DNA of 64,000 bases from Qipengyuania marisflavi (GTDB taxonomy: Bacteria > Pseudomonadota > Alphaproteobacteria > Sphingomonadales > Sphingomonadaceae): positions 62,001 to 126,000 of the forward strand of contig NZ_VCAO01000003.1 of the NCBI RefSeq assembly GCF_005884405.1, given 5' to 3'. The notes under the pieces were generated by a model, which was not told the DNA's origin, did no database searches, and saw only the letters and a list, made by a program, of their open reading frames with translations. Shown in pieces: positions 9,398 through 56,100 of the stretch. Both the position numbers and the translations under genes were made by a program. Numbering within the stretch: the first letter of the stretch is position 1; every line of letters begins with the position of its first letter.

Positions 9398-10078
9398 ATG
9401 GCTTATGCTGACCAACAGATGAGCGGCAATCGCATTGTCGCGATCATTATTGTTGCCCTCATCCATATTGCTCTCGGTTATGCGCTGATCACTGGCCTTG
9501 CCTATGAAGCGGCAAGCAAGCTTGTCGAGCGCGTAACCACGATTGATGTGGAAGAGCCGCCGCCACCCGAAGAGCCGGACGAACCGCCGCCGCCGCCTGA
9601 GCCAGATGCTGCGCCGCCGCCGCCCGTTGCGCCGCCGCCGCCGATCCGCATCGCGCCTGCGCCGCCGCCAATCCGCACGCAGGTTACGATCCCGCCGCCC
9701 GCGCCGATCCAGCGGATCGTTCCGCCAAAGCCCGCGCCGCCTGCGCCTGCGCCCGCGCCGCCGGCACCGCCAGCGCCGTCGAAGGCTCGGGCCGCCTCGC
9801 CAAAGGGCCAGGAAGGCTGGGCGGCGCGGATTCGAGACAACTATCCGCGCCGCGCAGAACGTGACGGAACGGAAGGTTCGGTTGGCGTGTCGATTACAAT
9901 TGGTCCTGATGGCCGGGTGTCCAACTGCTCGGTGTCATCGTCCAGCGGTTCCAGTGAACTGGACTCGGCTGCCTGTCAGGGCATGACGCGCTACGCTCGT
10001 TACAACCCTGCACTTAATGCTGCTGGTGATCCGATCCCCGGCAGTGCCAGCACGACGATCGTCTACAAGCTTAATTAA
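9398..10078 (+). CDS. tonB: TonB energy transducer
   Basis: TonB spans the periplasm and passes energy from ExbB/ExbD to TonB-dependent outer-membrane receptors. The 226-residue protein has one N-terminal transmembrane helix (about 12-36, IVAIIIVALIHIALGYALI), then a long Pro-rich spacer (about 52-128, with PPPPEEP and PPAPAPAPP runs), and a C-terminal TonB domain (about 135-226) with the usual motif YPRRAERDGTEGSVGVSITI. The ATG at 9398 follows a GGAG; an internal ATG at 9419 is possible. It heads a cluster with exbB and several exbD genes. Confidence 0.93.
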   Translation: MAYADQQMSGNRIVAIIIVALIHIALGYALITGLAYEAASKLVERVTTIDVEEPPPPEEPDEPPPPPEPDAAPPPPVAPPPPIRIAPAPPPIRTQVTIPPPAPIQRIVPPKPAPPAPAPAPPAPPAPSKARAASPKGQEGWAARIRDNYPRRAERDGTEGSVGVSITIGPDGRVSNCSVSSSSGSSELDSAACQGMTRYARYNPALNAAGDPIPGSASTTIVYKLN

Positions 10079-10131
10079 TCTGATAGGCGCCCCGCGGGGC
10101 CGATAACAATTACCTTAAGAGGACACTCGCT

Positions 10132-40702: not shown

Positions 40703-43666
40703 ATGACTGAGCAGCGCGATTACAGAGACACGGTTTTCCTGCCGAAGACCGATTTCCCCATGAAGGCCGGCCTTCCGCAGAAGGAGCCGGGCATTCTGGC
40801 GCGCTGGCAGGATGAGGGGATTTACCAGCAATTGCGCAAAGCGCGCGAGGGCCGCGAGAAGTTCATTCTCCACGACGGCCCGCCCTATGCCAATGGCAAT
40901 ATGCATATCGGCCACGCGCTGAACCATGTGCTGAAAGACACAGTGGTCCGCACGCAAAGCCTGCTGGGCAAGGATGCACCCTATGTGCCCGGCTGGGATT
41001 GCCACGGCCTGCCGATCGAATGGAAGGTGGAGGAACTTTACCGCAAGCAGAAGCGCGACAAGAAGGACGTGCCGGCAAAGGAGTTCCGCGCCGAATGCCG
41101 CGCTTATGCCGCCAAATGGGTCGATGTGCAGCGCGAGCAATTGAAACGGCTGGGCATCAATGGCCGCTGGGACAAACCCTATCTGACCATGCGCCCCGAA
41201 GCGGAAGGCGCGATTGTCGCCGAACTGCACAAATTCGCCGAGACCGGTCAGCTCTATCGCGGCGCGAAGCCGGTGATGTGGTCGCCAGTGGAGGAAACCG
41301 CTCTGGCCGATGCCGAAGTCGAATATGCCGATCTGACCGACAGCCCGCAGATCGATGTGGCGTTCGAGATCATGGAATGCCCGAACGTGCCCGAGCTGGT
41401 CGGCGCGCATGCGGTGATCTGGACGACGACGCCGTGGACGATCCCGGTGAACCAGGCTTTGGCCTATGGGCCGGATATTGAGTATGTTCTGCTTCAAGCC
41501 AGCTTCTTCGCTCCGGCCATCGGCACCAAGCCCGGTGACGGTTCGATGGATTTTAAACTGCTGATTGCGAAAGAGTTGCAGAAGGCGTTTTTGGAGCGAA
41601 ATACCTGTACTGAAGTTGCGGCAGGGATACAGGAAGTTTGGACTGGCAAAGGCTCCGACCTCGCCGGAACCGTCGCCCGCCACCCAATGCACCACCTCGG
41701 CGGGTTCTACGCCAAGCCGCGCCCCATGCTGGCGGGCGATTTCGTCACCACCGACAGCGGCACCGGCATCGTTCATATGGCGCCCGATCACGGCGAGGAC
41801 GATTTCGATCTGTGCAAAGCCAACGGCATTGATCCCGTGTTCGCCGTCATGGGCGACGGGCGTTATCGCGACGACTGGCTGTGGCTGGGCGCAGGCGACG
41901 TCGATGCCGACGGCAAGGAACGCCGCCGCAGCGTCATCAACAAACCCTTCAACGCACCCGACGGGCCGATCTGCAACGATCTGCGCGAAGCGGGTGCGCT
42001 GCTGTCGGCCAGTGCCGACTACCAGCACAGCTACCCGCATTCGTGGCGTTCCAAGGCCAAGGTCATCTATCGCTGCACCCCGCAATGGTTCATCGCCATC
42101 GACGAGGAACTTTCTCACTTGCCTCCCCTCCCTTCGGGGGAGGGGCCGGGGGTGGGGGGTTCACCCTCCGCTGCTGGCGCCGAGCACCCATCCCCAACCC
42201 CTACCGTCAAGGGAAAGGGCTCAACCTTGCGTTCGACTGCCCTATCCGAAATCGAGCGGGTTCGCTTTGTGCCGGAGAAGGGCCGCAACCGCCTGCGCTC
42301 CATGGTCGAAAGCCGCCCGGACTGGCTGATCAGCCGCCAGCGCGCCTGGGGCGTGCCGATTGCTCTGTTCGTCCACCGGGAAGGCGGGGAATTGCTGGTC
42401 GATCCGGCGGTCAACGCGCGCATTCAGGCCGCGATTGCCGCCGATACGGTCGATGCCTGGGAAGATAGCCGCGCAGGCGAATTCCTCGGCCCTGATCGCC
42501 ATCCCGACGATTACGAGATGGTCAGCGACATTCTCGACGTCTGGTTCGACAGCGGCTCCACCCACGCATTCGTCCTGGAATCGGACGAATGGCCCGAACT
42601 TTCCAGCCCGGCTGACCTCTATCTGGAAGGCAGCGACCAGCATCGCGGCTGGTTCCAGTCCAGTCTGCTGGAAAGCTGCGGGACACGCGGCCGCGCGCCA
42701 TACGATGCCGTGTTGACGCACGGTTTCACGATGGACCCCAAGGGCATGAAAATGTCCAAATCGCTGGGCAACACCGTTGATCCGCTCAAGGTGATGGAGC
42801 AATACGGCGCTGACATCATCCGGCTGTGGGCGCTGAGCGTCGATTACACCGAAGACCACCGCATCGGCGATGAAATCCTCAAAGGGGTGGGCGACAGCTA
42901 TCGCAAGCTGCGCAACACCTTCCGCTATCTGCTGGGCGCGCTGGACGGTTTTGTCGGCGATACCAGCGACGGGGCGCCTGTCCCCGAGCTGGAGCAATAT
43001 GTGCTGGCATTGCTGGCCGAGCTGGACGCGAAATTGCTCCGGGCAGCAGGTGATTACGATTTCAACGCCTATACCCGCCGTCTGGTCGATTTCTGCAGCG
43101 AGGATCTGTCGGCCTTCTTCTTCGATATCCGCAAGGACAGCCTCTATTGCGATGGCCCGGACGATCCGGCCCGCCGCGCCTATCGCACCGTGCTGGACAC
43201 CCTGTTCCACGCGCTGGTCCGCTATGCCGCGCCGGTGCTGGTGTTTACCGCAGAGGAAATCTGGACCACCCGCTATCCCGATGGAGGCAGCGTGCATCTG
43301 CTGGAATGGCCCGTGGTGCCCGCCATCGCTGCCGATATGCCGCGTTGGGAGGCACTGCGCAGCCTGCGCGAGCAAGTCACCGAAGCGATCGAGCCATTGC
43401 GCCGCGACAAGACCATCCGCTCCAGTCTGGAGGCCGATGTCACGGTCCCCGCTGCCGCCGTGCCCTCAGGCTTTACCGACGAAGCACTGGCCGAACTGTT
43501 CATCACCGCGTCAGTTACGCGCGGCGATAGCGACGCAGTGACGGTAAGCCGGACCTCTGCAAGCAAATGTGGCCGCTGCTGGCGGCTGCTTCCCAGCGTG
43601 CCCGAAGACGGCGCGCTGTGCGGGCGGTGCGACAGTGTCGTTGGCGAACTGGACGGCGCGAAATGA
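40703..43666 (+). CDS. ileS: Isoleucyl-tRNA synthetase with an in-frame repeat-derived insert
   Basis: IleRS charges tRNA-Ile and edits valine. The 987-residue class I synthetase has HIGH in GNMHIGHAL (about 69-72), the editing domain (TTTPWTIP near 242), KMSKS (GMKMSKSLGN, about 689-693), and a C-terminal zinc finger (CGRCW ... CGRC, about 954-975). Between CTPQWFIAIDE and LRSTALSEI, roughly residues 472-507, it carries a Gly/Pro-rich insert absent from the family, encoded by a palindromic DNA repeat at 42120-42222. Downstream motifs remain in frame, so the enzyme is probably functional. Confidence 0.95.
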   Translation: MTEQRDYRDTVFLPKTDFPMKAGLPQKEPGILARWQDEGIYQQLRKAREGREKFILHDGPPYANGNMHIGHALNHVLKDTVVRTQSLLGKDAPYVPGWDCHGLPIEWKVEELYRKQKRDKKDVPAKEFRAECRAYAAKWVDVQREQLKRLGINGRWDKPYLTMRPEAEGAIVAELHKFAETGQLYRGAKPVMWSPVEETALADAEVEYADLTDSPQIDVAFEIMECPNVPELVGAHAVIWTTTPWTIPVNQALAYGPDIEYVLLQASFFAPAIGTKPGDGSMDFKLLIAKELQKAFLERNTCTEVAAGIQEVWTGKGSDLAGTVARHPMHHLGGFYAKPRPMLAGDFVTTDSGTGIVHMAPDHGEDDFDLCKANGIDPVFAVMGDGRYRDDWLWLGAGDVDADGKERRRSVINKPFNAPDGPICNDLREAGALLSASADYQHSYPHSWRSKAKVIYRCTPQWFIAIDEELSHLPPLPSGEGPGVGGSPSAAGAEHPSPTPTVKGKGSTLRSTALSEIERVRFVPEKGRNRLRSMVESRPDWLISRQRAWGVPIALFVHREGGELLVDPAVNARIQAAIAADTVDAWEDSRAGEFLGPDRHPDDYEMVSDILDVWFDSGSTHAFVLESDEWPELSSPADLYLEGSDQHRGWFQSSLLESCGTRGRAPYDAVLTHGFTMDPKGMKMSKSLGNTVDPLKVMEQYGADIIRLWALSVDYTEDHRIGDEILKGVGDSYRKLRNTFRYLLGALDGFVGDTSDGAPVPELEQYVLALLAELDAKLLRAAGDYDFNAYTRRLVDFCSEDLSAFFFDIRKDSLYCDGPDDPARRAYRTVLDTLFHALVRYAAPVLVFTAEEIWTTRYPDGGSVHLLEWPVVPAIAADMPRWEALRSLREQVTEAIEPLRRDKTIRSSLEADVTVPAAAVPSGFTDEALAELFITASVTRGDSDAVTVSRTSASKCGRCWRLLPSVPEDGALCGRCDSVVGELDGAK
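42120..42222. repeat. GC-rich palindromic repeat element inside ileS
   Basis: The left arm holds a nested hairpin CCCCTCCC-TTC-GGGGGAGGGG (42125-42145) followed by a G-run (42148-42159). The right arm holds CCCATCCCCAACCCC (42187-42201), which pairs with the G-run, and a degenerate second hairpin. The central loop includes GGCGCC (42176-42181). This layout matches dispersed intergenic palindromes common in alphaproteobacterial genomes. It is translated in frame as about 35 extra residues. Confidence 0.75.
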
Positions 43667-53198: not shown

Positions 53199-56100
53199 TC
53201 GGCCGGTTGCGGTGCGGCAGCGACGTCTTCTTCATCGCCCTTGGTCGTCAGGAACTTGCGGCGCAGTTTCGGCCCCAGCCGGGTTTCGATGCCCGATGCC
53301 AGGCTGAACCCGGCAGGCACGATGAACAGCGTCAACACGGTCGACAGGACGATGCCGCCGATCACCACTGTGCCCATCGGGGCGCGCCATGCGCCATCGG
53401 TGCCGATGGAGAGCGCGGTGGGGACCATCCCCGCCGTCATTGCCACGGTGGTCATGACGATGGGCTGCGCACGCTTGCGCCCGGCATCGACAATCGCCTC
53501 GAACCGTTCGACCCCCTGCGCCATTTCCTCAATCGCAAAATCGACCAGCAGGATCGAGTTCTTGGCGACAATCCCGAACAGCATCAAAATGCCGATAAAC
53601 ACCGGCAGCGAGATCGGCTGGCCCAGCATCGCCAGAGCGATCAGCCCGCCCAGCGGGGCCAGCAGCAGTGAGCCCATATTGACCAGCGGGCTCATCAGGC
53701 GGCGATAGAGCAGCACCAGCACGGCAAAGACCGACATGATCCCGGTCGCCAAAGCGATGCCGAAATCGCGCAGCAATTCCTGCAGGAACTTGTCCTGACC
53801 GGCAGCACGATTGCTGACGCCGCGCGGCAGATCTTTCATCAGCGGGAGGGCCTTGATCGCGTCATCGGCCACGCTCTTCTCAGCGCCCGGGGCCAGATCG
53901 GCGCCGATATAGACGCGGCGCTGGCGGTCGTAGCTTTCGATCGAGGTCGGCCCTGAGCTGAAACGGATATCGGCCACCCGGCCCAGCGGCACCGAACCGC
54001 CATTGGCCGTTGGCACTGGCAGATTGGCAATGGTCGCCATGCGGTTGCGCGAATCCACGGGCAGCATGACGCGAATGGGTACTTGCCGCCCGCCGACCGA
54101 GAATTTGGCGCTGTTCTGGTCGATCTCGCCAATGGTGGCGATGCGGATCGCCTGGCTGAGCGCGATGGTCGTCACGCCCAGCGAGGATGCTAGATCGGAC
54201 CGCGGAGTGATCACCATTTCAGGGCGCTGCAATTCAGCCTCCACACGCGGCGAACGCAGCGTGGGCACATCCTTCATCTGTTCGACCAATTGCGCAGCTG
54301 TGGTGTCGAGCAGCTTGGGATCGCTGCCTGCCAGCATCACCGACACGTCACGGCCTGAACCGCCCGGCGGCCCCTGCTGCATGGCCTGGAAGTTTACCCG
54401 CGCATCGGGAATGCGGTTGAACAGCTGGGCGGTCTCACGCTCGAACTGCTGCGTGGTCCGCACGGGATCGTCGACCAGCGTCACATAGAGCGAGCCGCTG
54501 CCTTCGCTGGCGTTGAGGATGACCTTGTCGACTTCCTGCTGCTGCTCCAGAATCGCGACGACTTCGTCACCCACCGCCTCGGTCTGCGCCAGCGTGGTGC
54601 CGGGCACCATGGCGATCCGAACCTGGCTGAAATCGAAATTGACGTTCGGGAAGAACTGCATCGGCAGCGTGGCGAACATCACCAGCGTGATCAGGAACGA
54701 TGCCAGACCGACACCCATCACCCAGATCCGGTGATCGCGCAGCCGCGCCATGATACGCGCGCCGATACTCAGCTTCCTGCCAGTCGCAAGGCGGCGCTCA
54801 CGATAGGAATCGGCGGAATCAGTGCTGAGCGACCATTTGAGCAGCCCGACATATTTCGCCATCATCGGCCCGCTGGCGTGATCGGCATGGCCGTGCGATT
54901 TGAGGAAATATGCCGCCACCATGGGCGTTATCATCCGCGCCACGGCCAGGCTCATCAGTACCGCCGAAACGACTGTCAGGCCAAAGTTCATGAAGAACTG
55001 GCCGGCGATACCGGGCATCAGCCCGACGGGCAGGAACACCGCGACAATCGAGAATGTGGTCGCCACAACCGCCAGACCGATTTCGTCTGCCGCGTCGATT
55101 GATGCCTGATAGGCGGATTTGCCCATACGCATATGTCGGACGATATTCTCGATCTCGACAATGGCGTCATCCACCAAGACCCCGGCCACCAGACCCAGCG
55201 CCAGCAGGCTCATCTGGTTGAGCGTAAAGCCCAGCAAATCCATCGCCCAGAATGTGGGGATTGCTGACAGCGGGATGGCCAGCGCAGAGATAAACGTCGC
55301 GCGCCAGTCGCGCAGGAAGAAGAATACCACCACGACTGCCAGGATCGCGCCTTCGATCATCGCCTCGATCGAACTGTCATATTGCGACTTGGTGTATTTG
55401 ACCGAATTGAACAGCTCGACAAACTTGATGCCGGGGTTTTCCGCCTCGATCTCGCGCAGCACAACCTGCGCTTCGTCATAGACGGTGACGTCCGATTCGC
55501 CTTTGGCGCGCTGTAGGCCGAAGGTCACCACCGGGCGCCCATTGACCTTGGAGATATTGCGTATTTCGCTCGCGCCGTCGCTGACATCGGCGACATCGGC
55601 CAGCTTGATCGAACGGCCGCCCCCCAGTGCGATCTGGCGCTGGCTGAGTTCAAACGCAGTGGCGGCATTGCCCAGCACGCGGACCGATTGCCGCGATCCG
55701 GCGATTTCCGCCTGACCGCCGCCGGCATCGACATTGTTCTGGCGCAGCACGCCGTTGATCTGTGCCGCAGTTACGCCCAGCGACTGCATCCGCGTGGGGT
55801 CCAGAATTACGCGAATTTCGCGGTCGACCCCGCCACGGCGCGCAGCAGAGGCGACGCCCTGCACCGCCAGCAGGCGCTTGGAAACGGTATCGTCGACGAA
55901 CCAGCTCAGCTGCTCCATCGTCATATCATTCGCGGACACCGCGTAATTGGCGATATCATTGTTAGAAGTGGCAACCTTGAACACGCGCGGTTCGAGGATT
56001 CCGTCCGGCAAATCGCCGCGGATCTGGTCAACCGCCGCCTTGACCTCGTTCACCGCGACATTGATGTCTTCACCAATCTCGAACTGGATACGGGTGCTGC

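Follow-up and report, generated by a model that had tools for sequence, protein, structure and literature searches.

How a palindromic stretch of about 100 bp comes to lie in frame inside an essential aminoacyl-tRNA synthetase gene is the question raised by ileS of Qipengyuania marisflavi. The gene was analysed in a window of 64,000 nucleotides (contig NZ_VCAO01000003.1, positions 62,001 to 126,000), the window being the whole stretch under study. The ileS reading frame was open throughout without interruption, and its product scored 780 bits against the TIGR00392 profile (cut-off 621), as the only ileS match in its own genome (labelled G000; other G numbers denote genomes of relatives and L numbers fetched loci). 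Two short motifs that we take to be the HIGH and KMSKS signatures were intact (Table 1). The original prediction of some 100 extra in-frame bases with hairpins in an otherwise intact ileS was thus upheld by the reading frame, the signatures and an alignment of 20 copies.

Table 1. Features of the ileS locus (positions in the window)
Feature	Position	Strand	Basis
ileS, isoleucine--tRNA ligase, 987 aa	40703..43666	+	ORF; TIGR00392; sole match in own genome
Presumed HIGH signature, intact	40904..40915	+	translation; residues 68, 70, 71 invariant
Second hypervariable stretch, CP1 editing region, about residues 256-325	41468..41678	+	repeats only in some relatives
Hypervariable linker (site A), WFIAID strand to TLR helix	42110..42238	+	17-82 aa in 215 genes; pLDDT <50 at 479-505
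Palindromic repeat of family a (dispersed), in-frame reading PPLPSGEGPGVGGSPSAAGAEHPSPTPTVKGKGS	42123..42222	+	alignment with 19 other copies; relatives
5' hairpin CCCCTCCC / GGGAGGGG	42125..42145	+	hairpin analysis; copy alignment
Inner stem, 42148-42157 with 42192-42201	42148..42201	+	pairing analysis; consensus pairs
3' hairpin	42198..42219	+	reading of the 20-copy alignment
Presumed KMSKS signature, intact, downstream of insert	42749..42763	+	translation; residues 683, 686, 687 invariant

The element (about 100 bp, hereafter family a) was found in frame between the WFIAID strand and the TLR helix of IleRS. Twenty copies aligned end to end, with CCCCTCCCCTTCAGGGGAGGGGCCGGGGGTGGGG followed by a variable stretch of about 25 bases and by the inverse; their flanks were mostly unrelated, four copies lying in ileS, two in glyS and the rest in further genes or in none. 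The whole element formed one long imperfect inverted repeat with 24 consensus pairs, three of them changed on both sides, and the covariation term for the 20-copy alignment was only -0.38. In the window copy, the 5' hairpin was exactly where it had been predicted, with eight perfect pairs (arms 42125-42132 and 42138-42145). The second stem, predicted between 42148-42159 and 42187-42201, proved real and narrower, pairing 42148-42151 with 42198-42201 and 42153-42157 with 42192-42196. Most of the 20 aligned copies had a well-formed 3' hairpin; in the window copy it was partly decayed. All three forward frames were open across the insert. The folding energy of 42110-42238 was no better than that of shuffled sequences (z -0.23; 71 of 200 shuffles as good), so that the evidence for the palindrome is the conservation of the repeat and not energy, and single-sequence folding was rejected as evidence for structure. 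No Rfam match was obtained at the gathering score in L001, L262, L292 or L321. An inverted-repeat search of the window also displayed two imperfect palindromes, at 10070-10119 (71% complementary) and 53887-53918 (82%).

Copies of the element were widespread among relatives. A DNA search with the insert matched 113 of 199 genomes of the bacterial family, the long copies being 70-87% identical over about 90-110 bp and lying both in other genes and between genes. In its own genome, the DNA search gave one 36-bp partial match besides the element itself, while a covariance model built from the 20 copies placed three others at 51, 33 and 20 bits, the last being weak (E 0.03). The 51-bit copy was intergenic, lying between two genes that face it with their 3' ends and encode an Era-like GTPase and a topoisomerase; most of the 33-bit copy lay in the interval that separates the genes for ETF-QO and a GHMP kinase. 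The intergenic copies anticipated in this genome were therefore found, two of them clear and intergenic or mainly so, although they are few and the third is doubtful. More places were obtained with the covariance model in G026, G203 and G054, and two matches (one place) in G009, the number of places being about half that of matches as both strands were listed; G037 had no match to this model.

One relative, G026, carried the same element in ileS with the same right-hand junction as the window, which contradicts the expectation that, among the relatives compared, the insert would be restricted to one lineage. The two copies were 83% identical and differed by 9 nt at the left junction, and the two genes were not sisters in the gene tree. 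Given the shared right-hand junction, the small left-hand difference and the level of identity, these sequences probably go back to one event.

The place of the insert was variable across the whole bacterial family. About 40 residues separated the end of WFIAID (residue 467) from TLR (508-510) in the window IleRS, most of them encoded by the palindrome. In 215 ileS genes of the family, the distance between anchors ranged from 17 to 82 aa, a span that reaches some 17 residues into the conserved TLR helix. These genes were obtained from 120 genomes fetched out of 134 matching, as 234 ORFs minus 14 exact duplicates and five loci without both anchors (L024, which is leuS; L056 and L256, with shifted frames; L164, cut off by the end of its contig; and L086, missed by the pattern). 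In L056 (ileS of G203), a family-a linker copy was out of frame with the upstream part; either the assembly is wrong at a run of G or the gene is broken. In L164 (G065), the contig stopped within the linker, in a peptide resembling family a, which is what a break of the assembly at a dispersed repeat would produce.

Short linkers (27 residues or fewer) were found in 56 of the 215 genes and long ones in 159. In order-level outgroups from other families, 22 of 24 genomes had the short form, with flanking tblastn pieces 3-12 nt apart (gaps judged by eye); one of the two others had 34 residues (L053) and one gave no tblastn match. The solved IleRS structure 8c9e had one residue between the two aligned pieces at this place. 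The original prediction counted ordinary sequence in most relatives, or a lack of other genomic copies, against a mobile palindrome, and the former was encountered in part: 120 of the 159 long linkers passed no repeat test and looked ordinary, many of them belonging to three recurrent types (F, W and C), while other copies do exist in the genome.

Neighbouring genes could differ in the linker as a whole. Whole linkers differed between L035 and L049, with 97% identical cores, and between L004 and L178 (94%). Such differences between close relatives fit recombinational replacement as well as insertion, so that recombination of alleles may contribute to linker turnover. Eight aligned linker pairs inspected for target-site duplication displayed no clean empty site, the linkers differing as a whole.

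Repeats in these linkers belonged to several families. When compared with 119 repeat-bearing loci without ileS, 39 of the 215 IleRS linkers matched at least two loci and 46 at least one, while equal-length control windows further down the same genes gave two or more matches in 0 of 215 and one match in 6. With 100 context loci free also of uvrA and glyS, 38 linkers were retained. Since the context loci had been fetched with four ileS inserts (L001, L185, L157 and L190) or with the family-a model, recognition of families a to d is partly by construction; family e was never used as a query. Linkers matching a single locus were left out (L037, L039, L052, L188, L196, L234 and L244), including one with the look of family a (L244). 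The 39 linkers were sorted by eye into five families, whose labels (a to e) are those of this analysis and whose mutual unrelatedness was also judged by eye. Family a, that of the window, accounted for 10 linkers, family b (VRxEPVEG / LRQAQxER / STSSART) for 13, family c (VTPAKAGV..PASAGMT) for 6, family d (PPPRSGEV..PPRNGEGDQPQAGGG) for 6 and family e (VSTSLDTNG..SSEVE) for 4. These assignments superseded, for the 39 linkers, rough automatic peptide labels, which had wrongly assigned the W-type linkers L095, L106 and L172 to family a and had classed some repeats as 'other'. For families b, c and d, every carrier genome contained additional copies of the insert (10 of 10, 6 of 6 and 6 of 6), with 7-70, 6-29 and 4-47 matches, respectively; these counts cover both strands and include the copy in ileS.

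On a tree of the 215 proteins with the linker removed (64 of 212 inner branches weak), the presence of any repeat required at least 32 gains or losses. Taken separately, the minimum numbers of changes were 9 for family a (10 rows), 12 for b (13 rows), 6 for c (6 rows), 5 for d (6 rows) and 4 for e (4 rows). The prediction of a single hop in one lineage does not hold, the linker being variable across the bacterial family and four other repeat families being found at the same place elsewhere. Across the whole of the 215 genes, 42 repeat runs were counted (runs and not genes, L182 being counted twice), of which 33 lay in the linker, 5 in the CP1 stretch and 4 elsewhere. These last four comprised the KMSKS region of L232, which is no repeat, two runs beside CP1 near residues 323-363 (L054 and L255) and one near residue 845 (L225).

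The CP1 stretch, delimited by QALAYGP and KGSDLAGT, measured 54-121 aa in 198 parsed genes and was mostly non-repeat by eye. Some of its variants were shared by apparently distant lineages (e.g., L047, L123 and L193), as if cassettes had been exchanged. The ileS gene of G116 (L004 / L175) harbored two repeat families, b in the linker and a in CP1, the latter copy being 87% identical to the window element.

Two further proteins displayed the same pattern. Among the fetched repeat loci, in-frame copies were found in glyS-beta (5), uvrA (5) and ligA (2), as well as in valS, leuS and the gene for PDH E2, and in oligopeptidase B-like and NirA-like genes, both below their family cut-offs. In UvrA, 14 of 63 loci had a linker, delimited by the anchors LA(D/E)GLxYVDL and IVFSE, with matches to two or more repeat loci (one of the 14 being weak: L397, E 7e-4), the families being those of IleRS; control windows of equal length gave neither two matches nor one (0 of 61 each). 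The sample comprised 63 loci from 66 matching genomes, all parsed from the alignment (63 of 63), of which 61 were long enough for the control query. The GlyS-beta linker matched at least two loci in 8 of 30 (the best 30 of the loci from 58 matching genomes), with two matches in 0 of 30 and one match in 1 of 30 control windows. Common native lengths were 27 residues in UvrA and 12-13 in GlyS. By eye, families a, b, d and e were recognized in the UvrA linker, c having a single match there, and all five in that of GlyS. In ligA (L015 and L268), families a and b occupied nearly the same site, immediately ahead of position 158 in the NF005932 profile, and this site is perhaps a fourth linker of the same kind. 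A second variable stretch was observed in GlyS-beta (e.g., in G026 and G033) around query residues 111-139, with large length differences among genomes.

A, G, P, S and E made up 60% of the residues of repeat-coded linkers. On average, 3.1-4.7 of the six frames were open in repeat-coded linkers, 4.9 in ordinary long linkers and 2.5 in base shuffles; as the ordinary long linkers are more open, freedom from stops in the repeats is nothing special. In the AF2 model of the window protein, pLDDT fell below 50 at residues 479-505, between a strand (463-465) and a helix (509-519), and the best PDB matches of the model were IleRS structures (TM 0.62). Support for disorder from this model is weak, since its mean pLDDT was moderate (72) and parts of the catalytic core also fell below 50. 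The loop is presumably translated and disordered, and its nearly neutral character appears likely. The predicted picture of an essential gene that carries a dispersed palindrome without loss of frame, its product having a probably disordered loop, rich in Gly, Pro and Ser, ahead of KMSKS, is in this respect retained.

The best explanation is a near-neutral capture of dispersed palindromes in permissive linkers of IleRS, UvrA and GlyS-beta, to which a probability of roughly 0.85 is given. The in-frame position of the insert, its repeat nature and the recurrence of such inserts at the same place were directly observed. The element would be a REP- or MITE-like dispersed repeat, made of a head-to-head pair of GC-rich hairpin units of about 36 bp, that came to lie in a permissive IleRS linker. 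It would persist by keeping the reading frame and encoding a flexible loop rich in Ala, Gly, Pro, Ser and Glu, in-frame captures presumably surviving because flexible residues added to a spacer have almost no effect on fitness. The IleRS linker may thus act as a nearly neutral spacer that is filled, emptied and refilled over evolution, at least five dispersed repeat families having putatively been captured there within the bacterial family, most of them independently. One linker in UvrA and one in GlyS-beta would behave likewise.

Two other explanations have very little weight. An assembly artefact or a decaying gene could be suggested by the out-of-frame family-a copy in L056 and by the contig of one relative that stops inside the linker (L164); such an origin is practically negligible for the window ileS, which is the only match in its genome and intact with both signatures, and linker frames were open in all 215 parsed genes, though partly by construction of the parse and with two further loci (L056 and L256) apparently frame-shifted. 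That the insert is an ordinary lineage-specific loop, GC-rich merely by chance, agrees with a folding energy not above that of shuffles and with the 120 of 215 relatives whose long linkers passed no repeat test, but this reading was refuted by the copies of 70-87% identity over about 90-110 bp in genes and in intergenic DNA, and it is scarcely more credible than an artefact. A much more serious competitor, albeit an unlikely one, is that palindromes reached most ileS genes through interspecies homologous exchange of linker alleles, with only a handful of real insertions. The non-repeat types F, W and C were indeed scattered on the tree (by rough labels, 19 changes among 41 rows for F, 25 among 32 for W and 10 among 13 for C), near-identical neighbours differed in the whole linker, and G000 and G026 shared element and right-hand junction without being sisters. 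However, family b inserts varied in frame and order (some with VRxEPVEG leading, others with LRQAQxER leading or with STSSART), so that one donor would not suffice for them; carrier genomes also had their own dispersed copies, and the same families were present in uvrA and glyS.

Near-neutral capture has also to be weighed against linkers being preferred targets of several palindrome families, or loops being selected as helpful to the enzyme, which seems improbable. The concentration of 33 of 42 repeat runs of the 215 ileS genes in one linker and the presence of the same five families in three enzymes would fit such targeting or selection, as would the many palindromes in replication and repair genes seen by Di Nocera et al., who speculated on altered activity (PMC3733652). 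Tolerance alone nevertheless predicts such a concentration, because insertions elsewhere in an essential gene would be lethal and hence unseen, and loop sequence and length varied freely. In a stronger form, the linkers of IleRS, GlyRS-beta and UvrA (perhaps also of LigA) would be landing pads that receive several palindrome families far beyond what tolerance alone allows, either because a shared mobilising machinery prefers them as targets or because the loop is selected for. Together with either of these causes, this is a long shot, if slightly less so than targeting or selection in general.

Several known systems resemble the window element. Di Nocera et al. (2013) described palindromes tagged CGTC or GTAG within ORFs of many bacteria, including uvrA, DNA ligase and tRNA synthetase genes of X. 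oryzae, 'E. lithoralis' and S. alaskensis; they considered that such insertions might be neutral where they fall in flexible linkers or loops, and also speculated that repair proteins had been altered (PMC3733652). As in that study, the repeats here are short palindromes, mostly head-to-head pairs, in conserved ORFs of free-living bacteria. There, about the same site was found only for recB of two Xanthomonas, other genes being hit at different sites (PMC3733652), whereas here, in each gene, it is one linker that several families share. In contrast to those REPs, the window element ends in neither CGTC nor GTAG: terminal CGTC was absent from family a in the 20-copy alignment, the consensus of which ends TCnCCCC...GGGGCTT. 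Two of the species names, 'E. lithoralis' and S. alaskensis, are taken here to stand for an Erythrobacter and a Sphingopyxis. Family c had the CGTC tag, 8-9 bp stem and 4-5 base loop that define CGTC REPs (Table 1 of PMC3733652), reading CGTC ACCCCAGC GAAA GCTGGGGT in L082, with an 8-bp stem and a 4-base loop; it is probably CGTC-1 of that paper.

Like MITEs and REP-RAYT systems, the window element is short, non-autonomous, dispersed and built as an inverted repeat, with terminal inverted repeats as in MITEs (24 consensus pairs between the arms). The repeats presumably move. Unlike REP-RAYT systems, its own genome had no RAYT match (PF01797), and RAYT was accordingly not supported as the mover there; PF01797 was matched in 6 of the 15 genomes searched and was absent from 8 of the 14 besides G000.

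The window element is also akin to the Rickettsia palindromic elements (Ogata et al. 2000, 2002, as cited in PMC10969869 and PMC3733652), in being a dispersed palindrome kept in frame inside a functional protein; the host, in contrast, belongs to another bacterial order. No RPE model was among the 17 NCBIfam families matched by the window protein at E 1e-3. Such a model presumably forms part of the NCBIfam library, and the window element presumably differs from RPEs in sequence. An RPE-like process outside Rickettsiales had been put forward as new for this locus; intragenic palindromes outside that order have been known since 2013 (PMC3733652). What this analysis adds is the counted convergence of several repeat families on single linkers of three enzymes, for which no earlier report was found in the openly searchable literature.

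A Rickettsia curiosity thereby becomes a measurable process in free-living bacteria, in which a single position of each protein keeps the record of numerous repeat captures, from several families. Such positions offer natural replicates for how selfish non-coding DNA turns into protein and for which linkers tolerate it, and the same replicates bear on whether loops gain function and on how palindromes without a known transposase spread.
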